A DNA stretch of 32,280 nucleotides, taken from Deltaproteobacteria bacterium. Its GTDB lineage: Bacteria > UBA10199 > SPLOWO2-01-44-7. The stretch is taken from assembly GCA_016213065.1 (NCBI GenBank), contig JACRBV010000025.1, forward strand, positions 1 through 32,280, given 5' to 3'. Each line of letters begins with the position of its first letter. The stretch's first letter is position 1. This document shows, one piece after another, positions 3,208 to 27,720 of this stretch. Made by a program: the position numbers and the translations under genes. The notes below the pieces were generated by a model. The model was not told the DNA's origin, did not search any database, and saw only the letters and a list, made by a program, of their open reading frames with translations.

Positions 3208-3293
3208 TATAATGCCTCCTGTTTTGTTGGATCGTTGAAAACCGGTAGAAGGAATAGAAATTTACAGATTTTGTCAACTGCATTATGGGGGAA

Positions 3294-3342
3294 GGACTAT
3301 GGACCAAGGACAAGGGACCATGGACTATGGACCAAGGACTTA
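3294..3342 (+). repeat. Family-1 heptamer array, direct units only (7 units)
   Basis: Seven contiguous 7-bp units of form GGACNNN (GGACTAT, GGACCAA, GGACAAG, GGACCAT, GGACTAT, GGACCAA, GGACTTA) end two bases before the coaB ATG. Unlike most arrays in this window there is no inverted arm. The last unit gives AAGGAC about 6 bases before the ATG, which could serve as the ribosome binding site. Confidence 0.9.
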
Positions 3343-3344
3343 AG

Positions 3345-3998
3345 ATGAAGAAAATTTTGATTACCTCCGGACCCACACGGATGTCTCTTGATGCGATGCG
3401 GTTTATCAGTAATCGCTCAACAGGCCGCTTCGGGACTTTGATGGCGGAAGAGGCTCTCAAAAAGGGTGCCCGTGTTACCTTTATATATGGTGTGGGGAGT
3501 GAGACTCCAAAACCGCATCCTCGTTTAAAATTAATTGAGATTGAGACGAATAGGGATGTGGCCGATGCTTTGAAGAGGGAGTTGCGTCATCATTATAATG
3601 TATGCATTCACGCCATGGCTGTTTTGGATTTTCAGCCGGTGCTTGTGCGCAAAGGAAAAACAAAAACGAAAAACGGAATTTGGAATTTATGTCTGGTACC
3701 CACCCCCAAAATCATTAACCAAATTAAAAAATGGTCTCCCAAAATTTTATTGGTAGGATTTAAACTGGAGGTGGGAGTGAGCCAGAGCACTCTTTTAAAA
3801 AGTGCCCGCAATTTGCTTCGCCAAACCAAAGCCGATCTGGTTCTGGCAAATCAGCTGACCGAGGGTAAAGATGCAAATCATCCGGGTTACCTCCTCGATT
3901 CAGAAGGTAGCATCCTCGCCCGAGCTCGGGGAAAACAAAATTTGGCAAGATTGATTATTAAAGTGATTAAAAAATCTGGTTTACATCATAAAGTTTGA
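3345..3998 (+). CDS. coaB: Phosphopantothenate-cysteine ligase (CoaB) domain protein, stand-alone
   Basis: The 217-residue protein matches the CoaB half (DFP family) of the bifunctional CoaBC enzyme. This half joins cysteine to 4'-phosphopantothenate in coenzyme A synthesis. The N-terminus ITSGPTRMSLDAMRFISNRS is the hallmark nucleotide-binding start, with STGRFG following. The VGFKLE and DLVLANQL segments also match the family. No CoaC flavoprotein domain is fused or adjacent, so decarboxylation must come from elsewhere, or the protein is a CoaB paralogue. The ATG at 3345 is preferred because the frame upstream (from 3285) is only translated heptamer repeat and the family starts at the MKKILIT strand. 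Confidence 0.8.
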   Translation: MKKILITSGPTRMSLDAMRFISNRSTGRFGTLMAEEALKKGARVTFIYGVGSETPKPHPRLKLIEIETNRDVADALKRELRHHYNVCIHAMAVLDFQPVLVRKGKTKTKNGIWNLCLVPTPKIINQIKKWSPKILLVGFKLEVGVSQSTLLKSARNLLRQTKADLVLANQLTEGKDANHPGYLLDSEGSILARARGKQNLARLIIKVIKKSGLHHKV

Positions 3999-6889: not shown

Positions 6890-7114
6890 GGGTGCCTCTA
6901 GAACCCCGATTGTCATCCTGAACACATTCGCTTCGCTCAGTGTAAACTCCGTGAAGGATCTACTTGATAACAAATTGGATTCTTCGCAGAGTTTACCCTG
7001 AGCCCGAGCAGATTCTTCGCAGAGTTTACCCTGAGCCCGAGCAGATTCTTCGCTCCGCTCAGAATGACAAAGCGAAGGGCTCAGAATGACAAAGCGAAGG
7101 GCTCAGAATGACAA
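6890..7114. repeat. MITE-like dispersed repeat, copy A (with internal tandem repeats)
   Basis: The stretch begins with a GGGTGCCTCTAGAACCCC-type end, then the dispersed-repeat core TGTCATCCTGAACACATTCG. Within it a 33-bp unit starting GATTCTTCGCAGAGTTTACC occurs twice, and a 22-bp unit starting GGGCTCAGAATGACAAAG occurs nearly three times. Its reverse complement is near-identical to 30978-31180. It fills the gene-less 240 bp between the kinase and gspC. No coding potential is seen. Confidence 0.85.
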
Positions 7115-7124
7115 ATAGAGTTTT

Positions 7125-8072
7125 ATGGGAAGTTTCTTAAAACAATATCTCTGGGTGCTGGATCTGCTCACCATTTTTTTGTGCGCCTTTTTTGGCGCCA
7201 AGTTGACTAATGTTTATCTGGGACAGTGGTTTGGTGCCGATCAGGAAGGACTAAAACCTCCCGCTATTGAGGAAACAACAAATCTGTCAGTAGTCGCCCC
7301 CCCTTTTTCTGATTATAAAATAATTGCGGAGCGAAATATTTTTGATTCCACCGAACTTCCTCCCGAAGAACCTCCTCCAGACCTCAACGCTACCGCTGTT
7401 CCAACCGGCGAGGCTGTTAAAACGGGTTTGACGATCAAGGTGGTTGGAGTTTTGGTGGTGGGAGCGGGGATGGATGACCGCTCTTCGGCAACTATTGCCG
7501 GTGGGGAAGGGGGCCAGACCGATACTTATGCCGTAGGGAGTGAAAATGGTTTTGCTCCCAGCACCAAATTGACTAAAGTCAAACCGGACCGGATCGAATT
7601 TGTTCACAGTGGACGTCTGGAATATGCCTTGATTGAAGAAAATGGTGTCGAAAGCATTTTTGGCCCTCCCCCCTCTTTGACGGCCTCTTCCCCGACAGTA
7701 CCCCAAGCGTCGAAAGAACCTGTTCCCGCCGGGCAGGGGATTAAAAAATCAGGTGAAAATAAGTTTGTTATCGACCATAAGGAAGTTCAAAACGCTCTTT
7801 CGAATATGGAACAACTCTACACCGACATTCGAGCGGTACCAAACTTTGCTGGAGGAAAAGTTTTGGGTATGAAGATTTTATCGGTGAAGCAAGGTTCTAT
7901 TTTTGATAAGCTGGGCCTCCAGCGCGGAGATATTTTGGAGAGGATCAATAATCAGGAACTGGATGTGAAGAGGGGGTTTGAGATTTTCAACCAGTTGAAA
8001 GATGAAAAACGGCTCGTTTTGGATGTGGTGCGACAGGGAGCCAATCAAACAGTGGAATATGAAATTCGGTAG
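7125..8072 (+). CDS. gspC: Type II secretion system protein GspC
   Basis: The 315-residue protein has one N-terminal membrane helix (about residues 10-30) and a GspC homology region with the signature YKIIAERNIFDS (about 65-76). A Pro-rich linker follows. The C-terminal PDZ domain runs from about 240 to 310 (SIFDKLGLQRGDILERINNQ). GspC links the inner-membrane platform to the secretin and helps select substrates. It is the first gene of the gsp operon. The stop codon overlaps the proposed gspD start by 14 bases, so translation is probably coupled. No strong ribosome site is visible before the ATG, which follows directly on the repeat block. Confidence 0.9.
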   Translation: MGSFLKQYLWVLDLLTIFLCAFFGAKLTNVYLGQWFGADQEGLKPPAIEETTNLSVVAPPFSDYKIIAERNIFDSTELPPEEPPPDLNATAVPTGEAVKTGLTIKVVGVLVVGAGMDDRSSATIAGGEGGQTDTYAVGSENGFAPSTKLTKVKPDRIEFVHSGRLEYALIEENGVESIFGPPPSLTASSPTVPQASKEPVPAGQGIKKSGENKFVIDHKEVQNALSNMEQLYTDIRAVPNFAGGKVLGMKILSVKQGSIFDKLGLQRGDILERINNQELDVKRGFEIFNQLKDEKRLVLDVVRQGANQTVEYEIR

Positions 8073-10710
8073 AAAAGGACAATGGACCATGGACCATGGA
8101 CTAGAGACCTTTAGGGGGAGGGGGGTTTTTCTTTTATTGCTGGTCCTTGGTCTATGGTCCTTGGTCTATAGTCCTTCCTTCGCCCAACTTCCTGAAGGGT
8201 CGGCTACTTTGCCGGGTGCGGAGGAGGGAGCTCCACCGGGAGAAATGCCTTCATCACCTGATGTTCCGGAGAGTGCACCCCCGAATGGAGTACCGGAAAA
8301 ACCGGAGGAGGAAGCCGCTGTCAACCCCAGTGATGAAAAAGTTTATCTCAATGTGCAAGATCAAGACATCAAAGAAGTGATTAAACAAATCAGCAAAGCC
8401 ACGGGGCGTAATTTTATTATCGACAGCAAAGTCTCCGGCAAAGTGACCATCCTTTCCAATAAAATGATGACGAAAGAAGAAGCCTATCAGGCTTTTTTGT
8501 CCGCCTTGCAGGTCGCCGGTTTTACAACCGTTTCGGGGCCCGGAGGAATTTTGAAAATTATTCCCCTGAGAGACGCCAAAAATTTTCCGATTCCAACCCA
8601 CATTGACACGACACCTTATACCGACAGCTACATCACCCGTCTTATCAAGATGGAAAATATCAGCGCTAATGACATGGCCGAAGCGATCAAGGGTTTGATT
8701 TCAAAAGACGGAAATTTGTTTGCCTATCCCGAAACAAACACGCTGGTGCTGACGGATTCGGGCACCAATATCGACCGGTTGATGAAGATTATTAAGGAGC
8801 TGGATCAGGAAGGCCCGCAACAGGTTGTCGAAATTATTCCGCTACACTATGCCGGTGCCAAAGAAATGGCCGGTATTATTCTCAATTTATTTGAAGAACA
8901 AAAGAAGCAAGGGGGTGGTGGTGCCAGACCCGGCGGTGGGGGTGGTTCTCTGGAAGAGATTGCACAGGTTTCCAAAATTATTGCCGATGAAAGAACCAAT
9001 TCTCTTATCGTGTTGGCAAGCAAGCGGGCCATTGAGAAAGTCAGAGACATGATCAGCCGCCTTGATTCCAAATTGGAAGAAGGGGCAGAGGGGAAAATTC
9101 ATGTCTATTATTTGAAATATGCAAAAGCCAAAGATTTGGTCACGGTTCTGCAGGGGCTTGCGGGACAAGCGGCCAAGGCGCCGGGGGCCGGTGGAGCGGT
9201 AGCTCAGGGGGCGGTCATTGCTGATTTGGAAGAATTTAAAATCGGTTCCGATGATGCCACCAATTCTCTTCTGATTACTTCGAATCTGAAAACGTTCAAT
9301 ACATTGATCGACAAGGTAATCAGCAAACTCGATATCCCCAGAAAACAGGTTTATCTGGAAGCTATGGTCATTGAATTTTCCTTAACGACCGACAAAAGAG
9401 CGGGAGTTTCTTGGACCGCCGGTGTTGCAGGGGGATCGACCGTCGGATTTGGAGAGGCGTTTAACCAGTTGGCCGGTTTGATTGATCCTTTCAATCCGGC
9501 AAATAAAGCCTCCGCTCTCCTGAATGCCCCCGGTCTTTTAGGCGGGGTTTTGAGCACCAGAACGGTGGCCGTCGAAGTGATCGGTGCCGACGGAGCAAAA
9601 AAGACGGTTAATATGCCAGCCTTCTCCGCTTTTTTAAATGCCCTTTCCGTTTTTGGAAACACCAATGTGATTGCCAGCCCCAATCTGATGGCCTTGGATA
9701 ATGAAGAAGCAACGATCGAGATTATTCGGAAAGAACCGGAACCGGGAAGTAATATTCTTGGACCAAGTGGTCTTGTTTCACAGGGAAGTCCCGTACGTGT
9801 TGACGCGGGTTTAACCTTAAAGCTAACACCGCAAATTACCGAAAAAGGCTCAGTCCGAATGAAAATCGACCAGAAATATTCTTCTTTCACCACGGCCGCA
9901 AATCCCGGTTTGGGAACCCAAGCTATTGTGGAAAGAAAAGTAACCACTTCTGTTATCACGAATGATGCACAGACGGTGGTCATCGGCGGATTGATGGAAG
10001 ATGATGTGACAACAACACGGACCAAGCTTCCGGTTTTGGGTGACATCCCTCTTTTGGGATATTTATTTCAGAAAAAGGAGTCCAACTCACGGAAGAAGAA
10101 TCTTCTTTTGTTTGTAACTCCTTATGTGGTTCGCGATACCGATGACTTCAACCGGGTATTGGCCAAAAAACTGGGGCAACAGGAGGACTTCCTGAATACC
10201 ACTATGAAAAAGAAAGAAAAATCAACCGTGGATAAGTTAATCAAGACACACGATTTTGATCTGCTCGATATTTTGGCGAAGAAACCGGGCCCTGTCACAT
10301 CGGAACGAGCGGTTGTTCTTCCGGGCGGTGTTTATTCCACATCCAATAGCGCGCCGATTATTACGGCAAAACCGGAAGAGGAAAATCATGTAACCATTGT
10401 ATTGCCTCCCCTGCCTCCCCCCGCAGAATCCGTCGATCAGAAACAAAAATCTGTTATTCCAACAACTACAATTCAGACTCAAACTCAAACTCAAACTCAA
10501 ACTCAAACAACAACCCCGCCACCCGTGCAAATTATTCCCCCAAAAAAGAAACCCGCCAATCAGGTAAAAGCGGGGCCCGTCCCAGCAACAACAAAACCAA
10601 AAACCACTACGACAACGACCACCACCACAACAACAACCACCAAAACCCCCATAAAACGTCCCGCAGTAATTACCCTCCCCCCCGGCACCACCCCCGACAT
10701 TGGTGAGTAA
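8059..10710 (+). CDS. gspD: Type II secretion outer-membrane secretin GspD
   Basis: The 883-residue secretin starts with a signal peptide ending YSPSFA^Q. The N0 domain follows (VYLNVQDQDIKEVIKQISKA, about residues 92-165), then N1-N3 modules. The secretin channel domain peaks around residue 640 (IGGLMEDD, LPVLGDIPLLGYLF) and ends near residue 690 (VRDTDDF). It forms the outer-membrane pore. A long Pro/Thr-rich tail of about 190 residues follows, with TQTQTQ and poly-Thr runs, unusual for GspD. The start at ATG 8059 overlaps gspC. ATG 8089 (after AAAAGGAC) is an alternative. The signal peptide core LVLGLWSLVYSP is translated from heptamer repeats. Confidence 0.93.
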   Translation: MKFGRKGQWTMDHGLETFRGRGVFLLLLVLGLWSLVYSPSFAQLPEGSATLPGAEEGAPPGEMPSSPDVPESAPPNGVPEKPEEEAAVNPSDEKVYLNVQDQDIKEVIKQISKATGRNFIIDSKVSGKVTILSNKMMTKEEAYQAFLSALQVAGFTTVSGPGGILKIIPLRDAKNFPIPTHIDTTPYTDSYITRLIKMENISANDMAEAIKGLISKDGNLFAYPETNTLVLTDSGTNIDRLMKIIKELDQEGPQQVVEIIPLHYAGAKEMAGIILNLFEEQKKQGGGGARPGGGGGSLEEIAQVSKIIADERTNSLIVLASKRAIEKVRDMISRLDSKLEEGAEGKIHVYYLKYAKAKDLVTVLQGLAGQAAKAPGAGGAVAQGAVIADLEEFKIGSDDATNSLLITSNLKTFNTLIDKVISKLDIPRKQVYLEAMVIEFSLTTDKRAGVSWTAGVAGGSTVGFGEAFNQLAGLIDPFNPANKASALLNAPGLLGGVLSTRTVAVEVIGADGAKKTVNMPAFSAFLNALSVFGNTNVIASPNLMALDNEEATIEIIRKEPEPGSNILGPSGLVSQGSPVRVDAGLTLKLTPQITEKGSVRMKIDQKYSSFTTAANPGLGTQAIVERKVTTSVITNDAQTVVIGGLMEDDVTTTRTKLPVLGDIPLLGYLFQKKESNSRKKNLLLFVTPYVVRDTDDFNRVLAKKLGQQEDFLNTTMKKKEKSTVDKLIKTHDFDLLDILAKKPGPVTSERAVVLPGGVYSTSNSAPIITAKPEEENHVTIVLPPLPPPAESVDQKQKSVIPTTTIQTQTQTQTQTQTTTPPPVQIIPPKKKPANQVKAGPVPATTKPKTTTTTTTTTTTTTKTPIKRPAVITLPPGTTPDIGE
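8077..8174. repeat. Family-1 heptamer array, inverted pair, inside the gspD signal sequence
   Basis: Direct units GGACAAT, GGACCAT, GGACCAT, GGACTAG (8077-8104) and inverted units beginning GGTCCTTGGTCTATGGTCC (8142-8174) flank a G-rich linker. The whole array lies inside the gspD reading frame and encodes most of the signal peptide. Confidence 0.9.
10477..10506. repeat. Hexamer tandem repeat (ACTCAA)5 in the gspD tail
   Basis: Five exact copies of ACTCAA encode alternating Thr-Gln in the C-terminal extension of GspD. About 100 bp further on, ACN codons encode a poly-Thr run. Hexamer slippage would keep frame and only change tail length. Confidence 0.9.
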
Positions 10711-12547: not shown

Positions 12548-12550
12548 CAA

Positions 12551-12637
12551 AATGCAAAAATCAAAAATAAAAAATCAAAAATGAAAAACACATATTAAAA
12601 ATTTAAAAATTTTTAATTTTTGCTTTTTAATTTTTAC
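12551..12637. repeat. Family-3 AT-rich heptamer array, inverted pair (gspE-gspF junction)
   Basis: Units related to CAAAAAT (CAAAAAT, AAAAAAT, CAAAAAT, GAAAAAC) are followed by a self-complementary AAAATTTAAAAATTTT centre and inverted TTTTTGC/TTTTTAC units. It fills the gspE-gspF spacer and ends a few bases before the gspF ATG. It has the same direct-then-inverted layout as the GC-richer family 1. Confidence 0.75.
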
Positions 12638-12641
12638 TCTT

Positions 12642-13877
12642 ATGCCCGTTTTTGAATACACAGGGATTAATCAACAACGTAAGAAAGCTTCCGGTATCAT
12701 TGAGGCCGAGAGTGACAAAGCGGCCCGGATGAAGCTTAGAAAAATGGGAATTTTTCCGCAGATTTTGACTCTTGAAGGTGGGGCCAAGAAAAAATTCTCT
12801 CTAAATACCAACGTTGATTTCAGTAAATGGGGAAATCGAATCAAAGTTCAGGATATTGCTAGCATGACAAGACAGATGGCAACCCTTGTCAATGCGGGAA
12901 TTCCGCTGGTGGATTCTTTGACAGCTCTTGTCGAGCAGGTTGAAAACCCAAAACTCAGAAAAGTTCTGACTCAGATCAAAGAAAAAGTGACGGAAGGTCA
13001 AAAACTTTCCGACGCGATGCGTGCCCATCCCAAAATTTTTACCGATCTCTATGTTAACATGGTGAACGCCGGTGAAAACAGCGGCGCGCTGGATGTTGTG
13101 TTGATCAGGCTCGCCGATTTTACGGAAGGTCAGGCACGCCTCAAAAGCAAAGTAATCGGAGCGATGATTTATCCCGCCATCATGTCGATTGTCGGTGTTG
13201 CTTTGATGATTATGCTCGTTGTGTTTGTGGTTCCTCAAATCACGCAGATTTTTTTGGATGTCAAAGCAACCCTTCCCCTGCCGACGCGTATTTTGATGTT
13301 TGTCAGCAATGCGCTGACCACGGGCTGGATTGTGTTTTTGCTTTTACTCCTGTTTGGCTTGAGTGGGTTCCTGTTAAAAAAATGGTTCAAGACTCCAAAG
13401 GGACGGGAATTTTTGGATAAATGGATGCTAAAGTTGCCGTTGTTTGGAAAATTAAACCGGATGATTGCTATTTCCCGTTTTGCGAGAACGCTCTCGACTC
13501 TCTTAAATAGCGGCGTTCCTCTTTTAAATGCCCTCGACATTGTGAGTCATATTGTGACGAACACAGTTATACGCCGCGCTATTGAAGAAACAAAGAAAAG
13601 CGTACAAGAAGGAGCTTCCGTTTCAGATCCTTTAAAAAGAAGCGGACAATTTCCTCCGATTGTAACGCACATGATTGCCATCGGAGAAAAAACGGGGGAT
13701 ATGGAAAAAATGTTGGAGCGCGTCGCGGAAGCTTACGACACGCAGGTGGACAACACTGTTTCCACTTTGACAACACTTTTGGAGCCGATCATGATTTTAG
13801 TTATGGCAGGGGTGGTCTCTTTTATAGTAATGTCCATCCTGTTGCCAATTTTACAATTGAACCAACTAGGAGGATAA
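12642..13877 (+). CDS. gspF: Type II secretion inner-membrane platform protein GspF
   Basis: The 411-residue protein starts with the typical MPVFEYTGINQQRKKASGII and contains two T2SSF domains (about residues 75-195 and 280-400). Three hydrophobic membrane segments are seen, near residues 178-200, 220-245 and 380-403. Family motifs include LVNAGIPLVDSL and the repeated LNSGVPLLNALD. GspF anchors GspE and GspL at the membrane. Length and ending (LLPILQLNQLGG) are normal. There is no clear Shine-Dalgarno: the ATG follows an AT-rich repeat, so translation initiation may depend on the unstructured or folded state of that spacer. Confidence 0.94.
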   Translation: MPVFEYTGINQQRKKASGIIEAESDKAARMKLRKMGIFPQILTLEGGAKKKFSLNTNVDFSKWGNRIKVQDIASMTRQMATLVNAGIPLVDSLTALVEQVENPKLRKVLTQIKEKVTEGQKLSDAMRAHPKIFTDLYVNMVNAGENSGALDVVLIRLADFTEGQARLKSKVIGAMIYPAIMSIVGVALMIMLVVFVVPQITQIFLDVKATLPLPTRILMFVSNALTTGWIVFLLLLLFGLSGFLLKKWFKTPKGREFLDKWMLKLPLFGKLNRMIAISRFARTLSTLLNSGVPLLNALDIVSHIVTNTVIRRAIEETKKSVQEGASVSDPLKRSGQFPPIVTHMIAIGEKTGDMEKMLERVAEAYDTQVDNTVSTLTTLLEPIMILVMAGVVSFIVMSILLPILQLNQLGG

Positions 13878-13878
13878 A

Positions 13879-13980
13879 AAGATCAAAAATAAAAAAGCAA
13901 AAAGCAAAAATAAAAAATATAAATAAAAAAATAAGGATTTTTGGTTTTTAATATGTGTTTTTGATTTTTTATTTTTAATT
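13879..13980. repeat. Family-3 AT-rich heptamer array, inverted pair (gspF-gspG junction)
   Basis: Direct units such as TCAAAAA, TAAAAAA, GCAAAAA and GCAAAAA are followed by inverted T-rich units (ATTTTTG, GTTTTTA, GTTTTTG). The layout matches the gspE-gspF and gspM-gspN spacers. Confidence 0.7.
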
Positions 13981-13981
13981 T

Positions 13982-14430: not shown

Positions 14431-14539
14431 GGACGGACCATGGACAATGGACTATGGACCAAAAACAAAAAAAAAGAGTGTAGTTAGTCCATGGTCCATA
14501 GTCCATGGTCCACGGTCCATGGACTATGGTCCACGGTCT
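14431..14539. repeat. Family-1 heptamer array, inverted pair, spanning gspH leader
   Basis: Direct units GGACCAT, GGACAAT, GGACTAT, GGACCAA (14435-14462) are followed by an A-rich linker (CCAAAAACAAAAAAAA, then GAGTGTAGTTAG) and inverted units from GTCCATGGTCCATAGTCC (14487-14539). The orientation flips once more near 14517. The linker is nearly identical to that in the gspH-gspI array, so the array and linker appear to be one copied unit. Confidence 0.92.
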
Positions 14540-15136: not shown

Positions 15137-15690
15137 TGGGGAAGGACTATGGACAAGGGACAATGGACAAAGGACCAAAAACAAAAAAAAGAGGTGTAGT
15201 CAGTCCATGGTCCATGGTCCATAGTCCCTTGTCCCCAAAAGGATTTTCCCTTCTTGAAGTCATGGTTGCACTTGCCATTTTGGCTGTAGCGCTTTTGGCT
15301 CTCGTTAATTTTCAGGGGCAATCCATGATAATTTATGGGCGCGCCGAAAAACTAAGTCTTGCCACTTTTTTGGCCAGAGAAAAAATGGCCGATATTTTAT
15401 TGCAACTCGACAAGGAACAATTTCAGCAGGGAAGTTTTCCGGAGGATAAAAGCGAAAACGGTGTTTTTGAAAAACCATATGAAGCATACAAATGGGAATA
15501 TAAAATGCGCAAGGTGGAGATCCCCGCGCCGGAAGGATCCAGTGCCCAGCAAGATCCTATGATAGCTATCGTGCATGTGGTGACGGATCAAATCAAGGAA
15601 ATGGTTCGTGAAGTTAAATTGACCGTTTCATGGGAAGAATTGGGGAAGGAGCAGAGCTTTGATATTGTCACGCATATTTCTAAACTGTAG
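15133..15690 (+). CDS. gspI: Type II secretion minor pseudopilin GspI
   Basis: The 185-residue protein has LSPKG^FSLLEVMVALAILAV with Glu at +5, then a short soluble part with the GspI-like features (LAREKMADILLQL, and EVKLTVSWEE near the end). The leader is 37 residues and is read through heptamer repeats (MDKGPKTKKR, SPWSMVHSPLS). The ATG at 15133 overlaps the gspH stop as ATGA, with GGAGG 8 bases upstream, so this long leader is really the expected translation product. GspI joins GspJ and GspK in the pseudopilus tip. The gspJ start and its ribosome site lie inside its 3' end. Confidence 0.88.
   Translation: MMGKDYGQGTMDKGPKTKKRGVVSPWSMVHSPLSPKGFSLLEVMVALAILAVALLALVNFQGQSMIIYGRAEKLSLATFLAREKMADILLQLDKEQFQQGSFPEDKSENGVFEKPYEAYKWEYKMRKVEIPAPEGSSAQQDPMIAIVHVVTDQIKEMVREVKLTVSWEELGKEQSFDIVTHISKL
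15144..15236. repeat. Family-1 heptamer array, inverted pair, spanning gspI leader
   Basis: Direct units GGACTAT, GGACAAG, GGACAAT, GGACAAA, GGACCAA (15144-15178), an A-rich linker like that in gspH, then inverted units from GTCCATGGTCCATGGTCC (15203-15236). The whole array is within the gspI leader-coding part. Confidence 0.92.
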
Positions 15691-16435
15691 AAGAAAACAG
15701 AAGTCAGATGACGGAAGTCAGAAAAATAGGAGTCAGAAAAATGATTTTCTGTCTTCTGTCTTCTGTCGTCTGTCTTCTGGATTCACACTCATTGAAGTGC
15801 TCGTCTCCGTATCTTTGGTCTCTGTTATTATGCTGATGATCTGGCAGACGACGGCGCAGACCATCAATGCGAGACAGAGAATCGACAAGCGAAACGAGGT
15901 TTATCATAACGCCCGTGTGTCAGCCGAAAAAATGGTGCAGGACATTTCAATGGCTTTTTTGCTGGCCAATACGCCTGCAGAGCAGGGTCAGCGTCAAGGC
16001 TCTCCCCAAATTAAAACAGCCTTCAAGGGAGATTCCGAGACTCTGCAATTCTCGTCTTTGGCGCATTTGCGGCTTTTTAAAAATGCGCGGGAGTCGGATA
16101 GTTGCAATATCGGTTACAAACTGGAGTCCGATCCGGACAATCGCGATTTGCTGATTTTGATGCGCCGCGAATCAAAATGGCTCACCGATAAACCCGATGA
16201 AGGGGGAATATGGATTCCCCTTGCGGAAAAAGTGAAGAAAATAAAATTTGAATATTATGATGGCAGAAAATACGAATGGCAAAGCAGTTGGAACACCGAA
16301 AGTGATACAATGTCCAGACTTCCTCGCGCCGTGAAAGTGACATTCGATTTTGAAAATCCCGACAACAAGGATGAGGATATTTCATTGGCCACGGTGGCTT
16401 GGATTGGAATGTACAGCAATGCGATTGATTTCTAG
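15659..16435 (+). CDS. gspJ: Type II secretion minor pseudopilin GspJ
   Basis: The 258-residue protein has RLSSG^FTLIEVLVSVSLVSV with Glu at +5, and a C-terminal part fitting GspJ (LPRAVKVTFDFENP). No in-frame ATG precedes the cleavage site. A TTG at 15659, 7 bases after a near-consensus AAGGAG (15646-15651) inside gspI, is the best start and gives a 41-residue leader. That leader is translated from family-2 heptamers (KSDDGSQKNRSQKND, FLSSVFCRLSS). It overlaps gspI by 32 bases, so coupling is likely. GspJ is a pseudopilus tip subunit. Confidence 0.87.
   Translation: MILSRIFLNCRRKQKSDDGSQKNRSQKNDFLSSVFCRLSSGFTLIEVLVSVSLVSVIMLMIWQTTAQTINARQRIDKRNEVYHNARVSAEKMVQDISMAFLLANTPAEQGQRQGSPQIKTAFKGDSETLQFSSLAHLRLFKNARESDSCNIGYKLESDPDNRDLLILMRRESKWLTDKPDEGGIWIPLAEKVKKIKFEYYDGRKYEWQSSWNTESDTMSRLPRAVKVTFDFENPDNKDEDISLATVAWIGMYSNAIDF
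15692..15779. repeat. Family-2 heptamer array, inverted pair, in the gspJ leader
   Basis: Direct units AGAAAAC, AGAAGTC, AGATGAC, GGAAGTC (from 15692) are followed by a perfect small hairpin CAGAAAA-ATGA-TTTTCTG (15734-15751) and inverted units TCTGTCT, TCTGTCT, TCTGTCG, TCTGTCT. The layout is the same as family 1 with a different unit sequence. Confidence 0.88.
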
Positions 16436-16439
16436 AAAA

Positions 16440-16547
16440 GGACCATAGACTATGGACAATGGACAAAAGACTAAAAAATGGTCCATGGTCCATGGTCCAT
16501 GGTCCATAGTCCACAGTCCATGGTCTATAGTCCATGGTCCACAGTCC
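16440..16547. repeat. Family-1 heptamer array, inverted pair, spanning gspK leader
   Basis: Direct units (GGACCATAGACTATGGACAA, then TGGACAA; 16440-16472) are followed by a short A-rich linker and the longest inverted arm in the window (16480-16547, about ten units of GTCCATG/GTCCATA type). It covers the gspJ-gspK junction and the gspK leader. Confidence 0.92.
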
Positions 16548-17855
16548 AAAAGAGGCATTGCCCTGCTTTTGGTGTTGGGTGCTATTGTCATGCTCACCAT
16601 GCTGGCAGTTGCGTTTGCCTATGATTCCCAGATTGAATACCATCAGTCGATTCGCCAAAAAGAACGCTTGCAGGCTTATTATCTGGCCAGCTCCGCCTAC
16701 AATTTGGTTCGTCTTGAATTGAAAATCGGGAATTCCATTCAATCGCAAATTAATGCCAGCGCCGCTTCTGCCGGCATGCAACTGCCCATGGATCTTTCAA
16801 ATCCCCTTTGCAAACAGTTTCCGATGAAAACGGCCCTCTTCAGACTCTTTTTGTCCGGTGAGAGTCCCGAAGAACCGAAAAAGGAAGGCGAAGAAGGAGA
16901 AGAAAAAACCCCCAAAGAAAAAGAGGAAGCATCCCAAATGATGGCCGGATTTGCGCTTGCCGGTGTGGAAGAATTTTTGAAATTTGAGGGAGATTTTGAC
17001 GGAGAATGCACCGATGAAAATTCCAAGATTGATTTAAATTATATTTATTCGCAAGATCCCCTCAAAAAAGAATTGCAGGGTGAAAATGGTTATGATGCCT
17101 ACAAACATTTTTTGATGAGTGTGCTTTCACAAAGTGCTGATCTTTTTAAAAATGAGGATTTGAAAATTGTTGATGTGGTGAGAAATATCGCCGATTGGGT
17201 TGATTCCAATGAAGTGGTCAATGATTTTGGCGGGTCTGAAGCGGGTAGTGAAGATTCGATTTATCGCAACCGTCTTCCGGGCCAGATGGCGACTAAAAAT
17301 GGGAAATTTTCCCTTCCGGCCGATATTTTTTTGGTGGAAGGAGTGCGTGATAGCTGGTGGGGTGCTGTGTCCGATCTTTTTACAATTTATGGGGCGACAA
17401 GTTCTGCCGGAAAACCACAAATAAATGCTTGCCGCGCCCCAAACGAGGTCGTCAAGTCTTTGATCTTAAGATATACTGAGACCCGCACGGATTTGCCGCC
17501 GATTAAACCGACGGACGAAGAAATTTTGGATCAGCTTGTTCAGGCTGTTAAAGAAGGATGTACGGGGGCTGTGCCGGATAAAAACAAAATCGCCCAGTCT
17601 TTGGACGCAAAATTGTTGGAGGTCCTGAAAGCGGCGCCGGCCCCGCAGACGCCGTCTCCTGCGGGGACGGGGGGATATGCACCGCAACCTTTGGTTTTTG
17701 CCGACTGGATTGCAACACAGAGCCGTTTTTTTAGTTTGAAATTGACAGGACAAGTGAACGATACCGTGATAAAAATCAATACGGTGATTGATCTGGGACA
17801 AGGCGGGGGATCCGATACAACAAAGTGGAAAACGCTTTATTGGAAAGTGGAGTAA
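16452..17855 (+). CDS. gspK: Type II secretion minor pseudopilin GspK
   Basis: The 467-residue protein has SKRG^IALLLVLGAIVMLTM. The +5 residue is Leu rather than Glu, the known GspK peculiarity that places it at the pseudopilus tip. A large soluble domain follows, with the GspK features KIDLNY and IADWVDSN. An acidic/Lys insert lies near residue 140, and a Pro-rich stretch near 395-410. The 35-residue leader ([20 protein letters not shown]) is translated from heptamers. AAAAGGA lies about 10 bases before ATG 16452. Length is above the usual 300-350 residues. Confidence 0.9.
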   Translation: MDNGQKTKKWSMVHGPWSIVHSPWSIVHGPQSKRGIALLLVLGAIVMLTMLAVAFAYDSQIEYHQSIRQKERLQAYYLASSAYNLVRLELKIGNSIQSQINASAASAGMQLPMDLSNPLCKQFPMKTALFRLFLSGESPEEPKKEGEEGEEKTPKEKEEASQMMAGFALAGVEEFLKFEGDFDGECTDENSKIDLNYIYSQDPLKKELQGENGYDAYKHFLMSVLSQSADLFKNEDLKIVDVVRNIADWVDSNEVVNDFGGSEAGSEDSIYRNRLPGQMATKNGKFSLPADIFLVEGVRDSWWGAVSDLFTIYGATSSAGKPQINACRAPNEVVKSLILRYTETRTDLPPIKPTDEEILDQLVQAVKEGCTGAVPDKNKIAQSLDAKLLEVLKAAPAPQTPSPAGTGGYAPQPLVFADWIATQSRFFSLKLTGQVNDTVIKINTVIDLGQGGGSDTTKWKTLYWKVE

Positions 17856-17860
17856 TGAAA

Positions 17861-17944
17861 GGACTATGGACCATGGACAATAGACTACAGACCGGAAACA
17901 AAAAGCAGTTGGTCCATAGACCATGGTCCATAGTCCATGGTCTG
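17861..17944. repeat. Family-1 heptamer array, inverted pair (gspK-gspL junction)
   Basis: Direct units from GGACTATGGACCATGGACAA (17861-17893) and inverted units from GGTCCATAGACCATGGTCCA (17911-17944) flank an A-rich linker. Here the array is intergenic and ends 11 bp before the gspL ATG. Confidence 0.92.
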
Positions 17945-17955
17945 TTATAAATTTT

Positions 17956-19572
17956 ATGCCTCAAACAATTATTGGTATTGATATTGGGACCTATTCGATC
18001 AAGATTGCCAAGATCGAACGCTCGTTTAAAAGTTTTGAGTTTGTCAATTTTTTTGAACGCAAAATCCAATACAATGAAATTTTAAAACCGGAAGAGTCGA
18101 TTTCCGTCACACTTCAAGGGATGATCGACGACTTTGGCATCAAATGGGATCAGGTCATTTGCGGTTATCCCGGCCAGAAAGTTTCTTCACGCGTGGTGAC
18201 GCTTCCTTTCGGAAGTCTCAAAAAAATTGACCAGACTCTTGAGTTTGAGTTGGAAGCCTATATCCCCTTCGACCTCACAAATCTCATCGTTGATTATTAT
18301 GTTTTGACGAGTTCCAAAGAATCGTCTGATGTTTTAACTCTCTATACACTCCGCGATGAGTTTGCGCGGTGGTTTAACATGTTGCAAAACTGCCGTGTTG
18401 ATCCCAAAATAATTACAGTCGAAGAGGTGGAATATTTGAATCTTGTCTCCCTTGGCATGGTGCCGCCGGAGGGACCTTACGCCATTCTTGATATCGGACA
18501 CACCAAAACCAATTTGGTGTTGTGTAAGGGGAAAAAACTTTCTTTTGTGCGTTCTGTTTCGGTTGCGGGAAAACAGATTACCGAAACAATCCAGAAAAAA
18601 CTGAACGTTCCCCATGAAGAAGCCGAACGCATGAAAATTGAGATGGGTGGCATTCCCCAAGAGGGAGATGTGCTCGATGATTTGTCCCGTCAAGTCGGGG
18701 AGGCGATGAAGGAAGCGATAGACGAATTGATTTTAAATATTCGTCAGGCATTTTTTGCTTTTCAGAACAAGGAAGGCGTGGCTGTTGAGGGAATCTATCT
18801 TTGCGGCGGCACGTCCCGCATTCCAACACTCGATCGCTATCTTTCAATGCGTTTAAAGCAGAATGTGACCTACATTGATTGCACCTCTTTTCATTTCAGC
18901 AAACTGGGAAAAATAGCCACACACCGGGCCATGATGACGCAAGGTCTGGCTCTGGCATTGCGTGGTGTTGCGGCGGGCGGCATGCCCTCCATTAATTTTC
19001 GCATCGGAGATTTTGCGTACAAGGGGGACGTTGAAAAGCTGGGAGGAACACTTCGCCATGTAGGAATTGCGGTCGGCCTGATTTTTTTTCTGGGACTCAC
19101 CCATTTTAGCGTGAAATATTATCTTCTCTCCAAACATCTCAATGCGTTGAACAGTCGCGTGACGGGTATGGTACAGAAAGTGCTTACCACCGCGACAAAA
19201 AAACAACTCTCTTCGCCCGGAGCGGCGCTTAAATTTTTGCAAAGCGATGAGGCGCGTATTCAGGATCGGGCTTCAAAATTATCGGACATCAAGGGACTTC
19301 CGGTTTTGGATGTTATCAAGGAAATCTCATCAAAGATTCCCGGCAGAAAAGATATCCAGCTTGATGTGGAAGATCTCAATATCAAGGGAGATAAGATGAG
19401 TCTGGCCGGCAGGGTTGATTCGTTTATCGCGGTTGATAAAATAAAGGCGGCTCTTGAGGCGTCTCCATATTTCAAAAAAGTGACTCCGGGCAATGTTGGA
19501 AAGGGCATCAAAGAGGGAGAAGTGAAGTTTGAAATGACAATGGAGTTATCTCCCAAAGAGGAAAAACCATAA
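17956..19572 (+). CDS. gspL: Type II secretion protein GspL (PilM-like plus periplasmic part)
   Basis: The 538-residue protein has an actin-like cytoplasmic domain with IGIDIGTYSIKIAKIE (phosphate 1), AILDIGHTKTNLVL (phosphate 2) and IYLCGGTSRIPTLDRYL. A single membrane helix lies at about residues 368-388 (AVGLIFFLGL), followed by a periplasmic ferredoxin-like part. GspL recruits GspE to the membrane and pairs with GspM. The cytoplasmic domain is close to the type IV pilus PilM form, as in deltaproteobacterial GspL. The ATG at 17956 is preferred: it starts the conserved beta strand, and the upstream frame from 17923 is translated repeat. Confidence 0.88.
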   Translation: MPQTIIGIDIGTYSIKIAKIERSFKSFEFVNFFERKIQYNEILKPEESISVTLQGMIDDFGIKWDQVICGYPGQKVSSRVVTLPFGSLKKIDQTLEFELEAYIPFDLTNLIVDYYVLTSSKESSDVLTLYTLRDEFARWFNMLQNCRVDPKIITVEEVEYLNLVSLGMVPPEGPYAILDIGHTKTNLVLCKGKKLSFVRSVSVAGKQITETIQKKLNVPHEEAERMKIEMGGIPQEGDVLDDLSRQVGEAMKEAIDELILNIRQAFFAFQNKEGVAVEGIYLCGGTSRIPTLDRYLSMRLKQNVTYIDCTSFHFSKLGKIATHRAMMTQGLALALRGVAAGGMPSINFRIGDFAYKGDVEKLGGTLRHVGIAVGLIFFLGLTHFSVKYYLLSKHLNALNSRVTGMVQKVLTTATKKQLSSPGAALKFLQSDEARIQDRASKLSDIKGLPVLDVIKEISSKIPGRKDIQLDVEDLNIKGDKMSLAGRVDSFIAVDKIKAALEASPYFKKVTPGNVGKGIKEGEVKFEMTMELSPKEEKP

Positions 19573-20165: not shown

Positions 20166-20172
20166 GGGAAGA

Positions 20173-20270
20173 TGCAAAAACCAAAATGCAAAAATCAAAA
20201 ATCAAGATTGCAATGCAAAATTTAAAATTTTGATTTGCAATTTTTGATTTTTAAATTTTGATTTTTTAAT
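20173..20270. repeat. Family-3 AT-rich heptamer array, inverted pair (gspM-gspN junction)
   Basis: Direct CAAAAAT/CAAAATG-type units are followed by a TTTAAAATTTTGATTTG centre and inverted ATTTTTG/ATTTTGA units, filling the gspM-gspN spacer up to the gspN ATG. Same layout as the other two AT-rich spacers. Confidence 0.75.
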
Positions 20271-20271
20271 T

Positions 20272-25942: not shown

Positions 25943-27616
25943 ATGTTAAAGTTCTTTTTTCCCATCTTTGCGGCTCTTCTTTTTTTGTCGTCGTGTGGAT
26001 ACACCACTTCTATTTCTGATGCGGGGAATTCTTCTACGCCTATTCAAAATATTTCACCGCCTGCCCCTTCTGTCTTGGATGCTTCATCGTCTCCCGCTTT
26101 GAGTGTGGTTTCTGTAAGCATCGCGAAGAATTCCCCCCTGATTGTGGAAGCGAATCATTCGGTACAACTTGGACTTGATGTGCTTTTGTCCGATGAAAGA
26201 AAAATTAATAATGCTTATCGTGGAACGGATGATTTTCCCGATTCTATTTTATGGTTTTCACAAAATAGTTCGGTGACAATGATTTCTCAATCGGGAACGT
26301 TGCAGGCTTTGACAACCGGTCAGACAACGATCCGCGCTTCTATGTTAAATCAGTCCGCTTTTCTCGATGTGATTGTTGTGCCGGAAATTATTTCGTTGAC
26401 CCAACTGATTTTTCATCAAAATGCGATCAATGTAGTTGGTCCCAACAATTTTCAAACTACTTTGGATGCCGTTTTTTCAAATGGTTCTCTTGTGACAAAT
26501 TCTTTTCCCGATTCACTTCGTTCTTCTCTCCTGTGTGATCTCCATTTTTCCTCTTCGAATGCAAACGTCGCTGTAGTGACGCAGTCTGGACTTGTCACGC
26601 CCTTGAATAATGGTTCCGCGCAAATCGGTGTGCAGTGCGGTCTTGTCAGTCATTTTATTTCCGTGAATATTTCCGGAATTTCTCCGCCGCAAATTGTGCC
26701 CGCTCCCGAAGTGCTTCAGTCCATTACCTTTATTTCGGATGCTTCTCCGTGGCTGGTGGGGGAGACCAAAACTCTTTCGTGCGATTTGCAATTTGATTCC
26801 GGTTTGGTTCACGCGGTTTCAAATGATTTTATAACACCTCTGGGAAATCGGGGGATATTGAGTTGGAGCAGTTCCGATGCGTCGCTTGTTTCTATTCAGC
26901 AGGGCATTGCTACTTTAAGAGGTTATGGAAGTGTGACCCTCACCGCTTCGTTTCAGGGACTTTCTTCCCCTCTTCAAAAATTTATTAAAATGCAAAGAAC
27001 AACTCCCAATCCGTCGTCCGAGGCGTTTGTCGGTTCGGATGATGTGGCGACAATCACGTATGGAATCAACTCCGGTTATGGGGCTAATCTTTTTCCAAAC
27101 ATTATTTATGGGCCTCCACGTATAAATGGAACCAACGTTGTTTCTTTGGGAGGTGGCGGAAAAATTCTTATTGAGTTCAGAGGATATCGTCCTGTGGATG
27201 GTCCGGGTTCCGATTTCACTATTTTCGAAAATCCGATTTTTGATTCTTCTTATTATGGTCTCTTCGCAGAGCGCGCCCAAGTTTCTGTGAGTCAGGATGG
27301 AGTTCATTTTTATACTTATCCTTGCAATGCTTTTGATTCCCAGCATATTTATGCCGGTTGCGCTGGAACGCATGTTGTGAATGCCACAGCCAATCCGTTG
27401 GACCCAAATGTTTCCGGCGGCGATTCTTATGATTTGGAAGAAACGGGTTTTAGTTCGGTTCGTTTTATAAAAATTCAGGATAGGAATACATGTGTGCCGG
27501 GAGATCCAACTTACACGACAAGCGCTACAGACGGTTCCCCGCTTTGCACCACCAGTGGAGAACAGGGTTTTGATTTGGACGCGATTTCAATTATTAACGG
27601 AAACAGTGAATACTGA
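25943..27616 (+). CDS. Surface lipoprotein with Big2-like Ig domains
   Basis: The 557-residue protein starts MLKFFFPIFAALLFLSSC, a lipoprotein signal with lipobox LSSC. Three bacterial Ig-like (Big2) segments follow, marked by SGTLQALTTGQTTIRAS, SGLVTPLNNGSAQIGV and SIQQGIATLRGYGSVTL. The C-terminal 200 residues (PGSDFTIFENPIF, VSVSQDGVHFYTYPCN, CAGTHVV, SGGDSYDLEETGFSSVRFIK) match a cell-surface domain seen in deltaproteobacterial and other surface proteins. An adhesion-type role is inferred. A TTG at 25895, 7 bases after GGAGGAGG, is an alternative start adding 16 residues. The same spot also reads TTGACA, a possible -35. Confidence 0.8.
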   Translation: MLKFFFPIFAALLFLSSCGYTTSISDAGNSSTPIQNISPPAPSVLDASSSPALSVVSVSIAKNSPLIVEANHSVQLGLDVLLSDERKINNAYRGTDDFPDSILWFSQNSSVTMISQSGTLQALTTGQTTIRASMLNQSAFLDVIVVPEIISLTQLIFHQNAINVVGPNNFQTTLDAVFSNGSLVTNSFPDSLRSSLLCDLHFSSSNANVAVVTQSGLVTPLNNGSAQIGVQCGLVSHFISVNISGISPPQIVPAPEVLQSITFISDASPWLVGETKTLSCDLQFDSGLVHAVSNDFITPLGNRGILSWSSSDASLVSIQQGIATLRGYGSVTLTASFQGLSSPLQKFIKMQRTTPNPSSEAFVGSDDVATITYGINSGYGANLFPNIIYGPPRINGTNVVSLGGGGKILIEFRGYRPVDGPGSDFTIFENPIFDSSYYGLFAERAQVSVSQDGVHFYTYPCNAFDSQHIYAGCAGTHVVNATANPLDPNVSGGDSYDLEETGFSSVRFIKIQDRNTCVPGDPTYTTSATDGSPLCTTSGEQGFDLDAISIINGNSEY

Positions 27617-27703
27617 CTATGGACCATAGACCATAGACTAAAAACTTAATTAGGAAAGAAACTGGTCCATAGTCCATAGTCCATGGTCCATAGTCCATAG
27701 TCC
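27615..27703. repeat. Family-1 heptamer array, inverted pair (between two surface-protein genes)
   Basis: Direct units from GACTATGGACCATAGACCAT (27615-27640) begin at the lipoprotein stop codon. After a 23-bp linker, inverted units from GGTCCATAGTCCATAGTCCA (27664-27703) run up to the AAGGAGG ribosome site of the next gene. Confidence 0.92.
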
Positions 27704-27720
27704 TTTCCAAGGAGGAGTTT

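Follow-up and report, generated by a model that had tools for sequence, protein, structure and literature searches.

Heptamer arrays at the start of gspD

We analysed contig C25, a window of 32,280 nucleotides in a 1.8 Mb draft genome (G000). Two of its genes, gspC and gspD, are confirmed by Pfam, and a paired array of 7-base units lies just inside the start of gspD. The features of this region are:

7125–8072: gspC
8059–10710, + strand: gspD, the type II secretion secretin (Pfam N0, Secretin_N, Secretin); its ATG at 8059 overlaps the 3' end of gspC (EYEIR*)
8074–8103, + strand: first arm of the gspD paired element, GGACCAT-type heptamers (Tandem Repeats Finder and template scan), read in the n-region as KGQWTMDHGL
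8089–8091, + strand: in-frame ATG within the first arm, preceded by AAAGGA (about 9 nt upstream); as an alternative start it would give a 12-residue n-region
8104–8140, + strand: spacer or loop of the element, holding the codons for VFLLL (8125–8139), the upstream part of the h-region
8141–8176, − strand: second arm, inverted heptamers; its + strand reading in the gspD frame is LVLGLWSLVYSP (codons 8140–8175)
8176–8187, + strand: SFA-Q; signal peptidase I is predicted to cut after A (8184), with small −3/−1 residues (S, A) by inspection; AFAQ is kept in the related genomes G001 and G005

Tandem Repeats Finder located a direct array at 8077–8101 and an inverted array at 8141–8176, and a periodic-template scan placed the two arms at 8074–8103 (+) and 8141–8176 (−). 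The second arm consists of ATGGTCC and TTGGTCC units, its partner of GGACCAT, and the whole element folds as a hairpin (−59.9 kcal/mol, z −5.5). In the gspD frame the order is VFLLL, then LVLGLWSLVYSP, then S-F-A-Q. The original prediction had placed inverted heptamers at 8142–8174 and had them encode a signal-peptide core ending in SFA^Q; both programs and the codons at 8140–8175 agree with this to within two bases. Its description of the heptamers as the hydrophobic core of the GspD signal peptide holds for the C-terminal h-region and the c-region and fails for VFLLL. The codons for these five residues are T-rich and free of heptamers, so of the hydrophobic stretch the array gives only the C-terminal part, together with the c-region, and not the whole core.

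By sequence, the GspD N-terminus divides into MKFGRKGQWTMDHGLETFRGRG, the hydrophobic VFLLLLVLGLWSLVY (mean Kyte-Doolittle 2.57) and SPSFA^Q, with the secretin domains following. It thus has a positively charged n-region, an uncharged hydrophobic core and small residues at −3 and −1, in front of an exported protein, as expected of a Sec signal peptide. Since a type II secretin must cross the inner membrane, the GspD signal has to work, and we infer that the array-encoded peptide serves as its cleaved Sec signal peptide. Translation may start at 8089 instead of 8059, and the second arm is included whichever of the two is used. A compositional gene caller, led by the odd composition of the array, set the gspD start further down, at 8209; the array would then be an untranslated leader. 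However, the ATG upstream of the array is conserved in all relatives, and in every one of them a signal peptide lies between this ATG and the mature domain. Initiation beyond the array, a difficulty that the original prediction had raised itself, would remove the whole signal peptide, and we reject it as very improbable given the class-wide conserved ATG that overlaps gspC.

Abundance and distribution of the repeat

The heptamers are far from a chance feature of the window: 21 of its segments score at least 16 on the periodic template, versus one segment in 30 trinucleotide-Markov copies of it (968 kb). With up to one mismatch, the pattern GGACYATGGACYATGGAC has 332 matches in the genome and its reversed control has none. 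A survey of 60 genomes gave 332 array matches in G000, 205 in G005, 51 in G001, 15 in G003, 2 in G004 and 0 in G002, all of one taxonomic family, to which the repeat is essentially limited; outside it, a single mismatched match was found, in G011. With its tandem 7-base units at many loci and its absence from most relatives, the family has these traits of a lineage-specific heptameric tandem repeat (STRR-like). The congeners G004 and G005 differ about a hundredfold in pattern matches (2 versus 205), which points to fast gain or loss of arrays.

Because the draft metagenome genome is fragmented (155 contigs), the arrays could be suspected of being an assembly artefact. They are, however, only about 30–110 bp long and the same architecture returns in separately held genomes, and we consider an artefact extremely improbable. 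Matches to the Y1 transposase family (Y1_Tnp, PF01797) number 2, 1, 0, 6, 5 and 7 in G000 to G005, respectively. This count does not track the number of arrays across the six family genomes, and no clear link to a RAYT as the mover of the arrays emerged. With regard to a possible MITE, inverted arms are present; the loops are too variable between orthologs for target-site duplications to be read.

Structure and placement of the elements

The sampled stretches total 436 kb (G000), 262 kb (G005) and 100 kb (G001). Where two arrays lie at most 80 bp apart, the + array precedes the − array in 57 of 62 cases and follows it in one. Such + then − pairs fold as hairpins, with z −5 to −9 in six elements of the window. 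Paired elements span 70–180 bp, and single arrays are mostly 33–38 bp long (about five units). Home-made compositional gene calls place the 55 elements that were sampled first in G000 as follows: 27 at gene 5' ends, 17 inside genes, 9 at gene 3' ends and 2 clear of any gene. With 17 of 55 inside genes and many within N-termini, the repeat is not mostly intergenic, as STRR-like repeats are. Further elements in the window are:

3292–3340, + strand: single array at the start of the gene at 3327–3998 (Tandem Repeats Finder and template scan)
14435–14538, unstranded: paired element, N-terminal leader of a gspH-like prepilin gene
15142–15234, unstranded: paired element, leader of a gspI-like prepilin gene (MMGKDYGQGTMDKGPKTKKRGVVSPWSMVHSPLSPKG); its G002 and G003 orthologs start MKKGFSLLEV
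16437–16548, unstranded: paired element at the start of a gspK-like gene (16452–17855), assigned by position and N-terminus only, without a Pfam match
17858–17942, unstranded: paired element at the start of a gspL/PilM-like gene (17923–19572)
27615–27706, unstranded: paired element between two genes (hairpin z −5.9)

The arm order, the hairpin z values and the many elements at gene starts would fit an element kept for an RNA or DNA hairpin that acts in translation control, mRNA stability or protein binding, its coding being incidental. The TAACTGA heptamers of Beggiatoaceae, which often stand just upstream of start codons, have likewise been proposed as regulator sites (PMC4679880). This explanation is unlikely in our judgement, given that single arrays without a partner occur in signal peptides and genes, and that orientation tracks the encoded peptide (see below).

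Other repeats were seen in the same window. A second heptamer family, also inverted (CAGAAGT then TTCTGTC), forms the leader of a gspJ-like prepilin gene at 15698–15779 (SQKNRSQKNDFLSSVFCRLSSG-FTLIEV). Between operon genes lie A/T-rich 7-base arrays (12549–12636, 13874–13981 and 20172–20271; AAAATCA, ATAAAAA/GATTTTT and TTTTGAT), apparently of other heptamer families and some of them inverted pairs. Exact tandem repeats of a different type, GATTCTTCGCAGAGTTTACCCTGAGCCCGAGCA and GCTCAGAATGACAAAGCGAAGG, are located just 5' of gspC (6978–7115). Elsewhere, a PheS-like protein has a paired element at one and the same position in G000 (L112, 15134–15217) and G005 (L116, 4241–4319).

The gspD start in related genomes

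The overlapping gspC/gspD ATG is common to all five family relatives and to more distant class members. Four of the five relatives have a heptamer-free GspD signal peptide. These are short and ordinary in G004 (MKFAKFLIAVVVISVFSAQAQ), G002 (MIYDKILQIILAVFIFLSPVLSRAQ) and G001 (MKFASGLWLCVLMSGVAFAQ); in G003 a signal without heptamers is preceded by a different insertion. Only the gspD of G005 has the same heptamer architecture as the window (MKFGKTMDKGQRTMDQGPKTNSNWSMAFFLLLVLGPWSMVHGPAFAQ). With both the start and the signal ancestral in the relatives, the array came later and now occupies the signal core and tail: going by these comparisons, it entered a GspD signal that was already there and took the place of part of it.

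The claim that repeat DNA supplies the targeting signal of the secretin thus stands for the present h- and c-regions, which are repeat-encoded, and falls for the signal as such, which is older than the repeats. Heptamer-free signal peptides at the same place in relatives, which the original prediction had named as grounds for its refutation, refute an origin of the signal from the repeats; they leave intact that the repeats encode the present one.

The gspD architecture is common to G000 and G005, yet it is missing from G002 and from G004, the sister of G005 (84% identical, support 0.999). One common ancestral insertion may lie behind both arrays, on a tree with weak inner nodes and a mis-extracted G009 row. 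In G003, a different repeat encoding GLSLRVFVGAPNKTPQQTLR was observed in the signal region of two unrelated genes (L011 and L223), gspD and the ortholog of a gene on G000 contig C55, so that another repeat family has entered signal peptides as well.

Arrays in other export signals

An N-terminus scan of G000, G005 and G001 found 52 arrays in or beside strongly hydrophobic N-termini, 44 of them in (−) sense. We estimate that about 40 predicted export regions in three genera carry an inverted-sense array; the figure is an estimate, as the scan also took in a few pilin-type leaders and N-termini that do not serve export, and as a few genes have two arrays. The repeat-encoded predicted signal of GspD is confirmed as a feature of the sequence and is one of about 40 such N-termini, a recurrence that the original prediction had missed.

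The typical array-borne N-terminal peptide is LLLVLGPWSxVHGP-AFA. Aligned core cases read CTT TTG GTC CTY GGT CCA TGG TCC ATG GTC CAT GGT CCN GCY TTY GCC (LLVLGPWSMVHGPAFA), and this DNA is common to unrelated genes of the three genera. Several lipoproteins have the array directly before the lipobox, e.g. VHGPWSMVLLLLLAC. All 19 genes that were compared with array-free orthologs (in G002, G003 or G004) have a signal peptide or lipobox there too, and total signal length is often similar with and without the array, e.g. MKKKLILLLLVLCPWSIVHGPAFAQTRDGE versus MKRLLICLVFFLSLAQTVLAQTRDGE. On this comparison, the repeats take over the core of a signal and do not create secretion. A de novo origin of the signals from repeats is excluded by these 19 genes together with the gspD relatives.

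The signal-peptide arrays of unrelated genes agree in length, codon register and flanking codons, as they would if F/L codons, array and AFA codons had been copied between secretory genes as one module, about 45 bp long. A single one of the seven phases accounts for 20 of 28 signal-peptide arrays, and internal arrays spread over all phases, although this test is partly built into the choice of core cases. The n-regions, however, vary between genes, ordinary selection on signal peptides would also favour T-rich and AFA codons, and the ancestral signals pre-existed. We hold such copying to be rather improbable.

Separately, WIASSLALLAMT, FGLLAMT and RLLAMT in signal peptides of G004, G003 and G002 (L225, L226 and L231) look like another dispersed repeat read as hydrophobic core.

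Sense of reading in signal peptides and protein interiors

Read in (+) sense, the repeat gives an acidic cycle that carries Asp (TMDHGPW); in (−) sense it gives an uncharged one (MVHGPWS). Internal arrays mostly have the sense opposite to that of signal peptides (TMDHGPWT) and lie in variable loops, which differ in length between orthologs. As the (−) arm is always second in pairs, only single arrays were used to compare orientations. In signal peptides 19 are (−) and 2 (+), versus 7 (−) and 44 (+) in protein interiors (Fisher p 9e-10, with orthologous insertions counted as independent). An LVLG-like DNA pattern derived from these same signal peptides was used to fetch some of the stretches of G005, G001 and G000, a choice that biases frequencies and leaves the codon sense unaffected. 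In the G000 subset fetched with a neutral pattern, internal singles are 22 (+) and 4 (−), and signal peptides have just three single arrays, 2 (−) and 1 (+). Array orientation depends on context. We infer that purifying selection after broad insertion, not directed placement, made this pattern.

The proteins with loop arrays look like MetG, MurD, ValS and PrmC. The loop of the PrmC-like protein has the array in (+) sense in G000 and G003 and in (−) sense in G005, which means independent hits at some sites. A loop with GGACCAT arrays in one species can have peptides of other heptamer-like repeats in another, RGQESEVRGQRSEVRE and DSRLETRDSR, as seen in L296 (ValS-like, G000 contig C50) and L265 (MurD-like, G003). 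The GGACCAT consensus is open in both senses. That the arrays are open in all frames is no general rule: the GGACTAT variant gives TAG in (−) sense, and the gspD array has a stop codon in one of its reading frames.

Since it is signal peptides and loops that are permissive, arrays might simply persist there under neutral tolerance, with the peptide as a passenger. The often unchanged signal length argues against this, since the old core is then gone and the array must do its job. So does the first unit of the array, in which Leu stands for His in 22 of 28 signal-peptide arrays and 47 of 211 others, a difference biased by the LVLG-based sampling. Neutral persistence appears distinctly unlikely to us.

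Probable spread of the arrays and replacement of signal cores

The explanation that we prefer, and regard as very probable from the sequence comparisons, is that lineage-specific heptamer arrays spread, that the copy in gspD took the place of the ancestral Sec signal's core and tail, and that selection sorts the sense of the arrays. A short heptamer element would multiply to a few hundred places of the genome, singly (about five units, about 35 bp) or as inverted hairpin pairs. Insertion would be broad, with survivors at gene starts, flexible loops, termini and signal peptides. Of the two senses, the uncharged, hydrophobic one would survive in signal peptides; later changes would improve the array as a core and the old core would be lost. 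In gspD, a paired element would have entered just 3' of the conserved start, its second arm in frame as an uncharged hydrophobic peptide. Counting against this explanation, the n-region measured from 8059 has about 22 residues, which is unusually long.

A more far-reaching idea, possible and somewhat doubtful, is that the repeat is a portable signal-peptide core that has replaced the core and the cleavage-proximal region in dozens of unrelated secreted proteins, in parallel in several genera. If so, much of the secretome would share one repeat-derived signal, LLLVLGPWSxVHGP-AFA.

The takeover in GspD and in dozens of other predicted secreted proteins, in this uncultured bacterium and in two genera related to it, is a striking case of repetitive DNA overtaking an existing protein-sorting signal. 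It offers a natural test of the minimal sequence that a signal peptide requires, and of the way in which repeat insertions are selected according to their encoded peptides: as the repeat gives an acidic, hydrophilic peptide in one direction and an uncharged one in the other, survival can be counted by direction.

Comparison with known systems

A search of the open-access literature yielded no bacterial repeat family described as recurrently forming the cores of Sec and lipoprotein signal peptides, and nothing relevant on repeat-made signal peptides, on heptamers in metagenome genomes or on this lineage. Ordinary GspD Sec signals resemble the present one in position, length range, hydrophobic core and small residues before the cleavage site; here, in contrast, core and c-region come from a dispersed DNA repeat common to many unrelated genes.

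Dispersed inverted hairpin pairs are also known from REP/BIME sequences with their RAYT (Y1) transposases, and PF01797 is present in five of the six family genomes. The heptamer family differs in being built of tandem heptamers and in being frequently intragenic, and G004 has five PF01797 matches with two array matches.

In form, the nearest relatives are the heptamers of Beggiatoaceae, Xanthomonas and Nostoc. The STRRs of cyanobacteria, the GGGAATC-type repeats of Xanthomonas and Nostoc (PMC4692102) and the TAACTGA repeats are likewise short lineage-specific 7-base arrays scattered over one genome. They are mostly intergenic, and TAACTGA read forward gives stops, whereas the GGACCAT family is largely translated.

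In behaviour, the Rickettsia palindromic elements are nearest, intragenic MITE-like repeats that are dispersed as palindromes and lie in frame in unrelated and even essential genes (PMC10969869). The heptamer repeat is also palindromic and in frame in unrelated genes, with many of its intragenic copies being single arms. It differs in its tandem heptamers of variable number, and the takeover of signal-peptide cores has no mention in the review of these elements and MITEs (PMC10969869). In-frame palindromic repeats in Rickettsia and heptameric repeats in several bacteria are already known, and the recurrent takeover of signal cores appears to be new.
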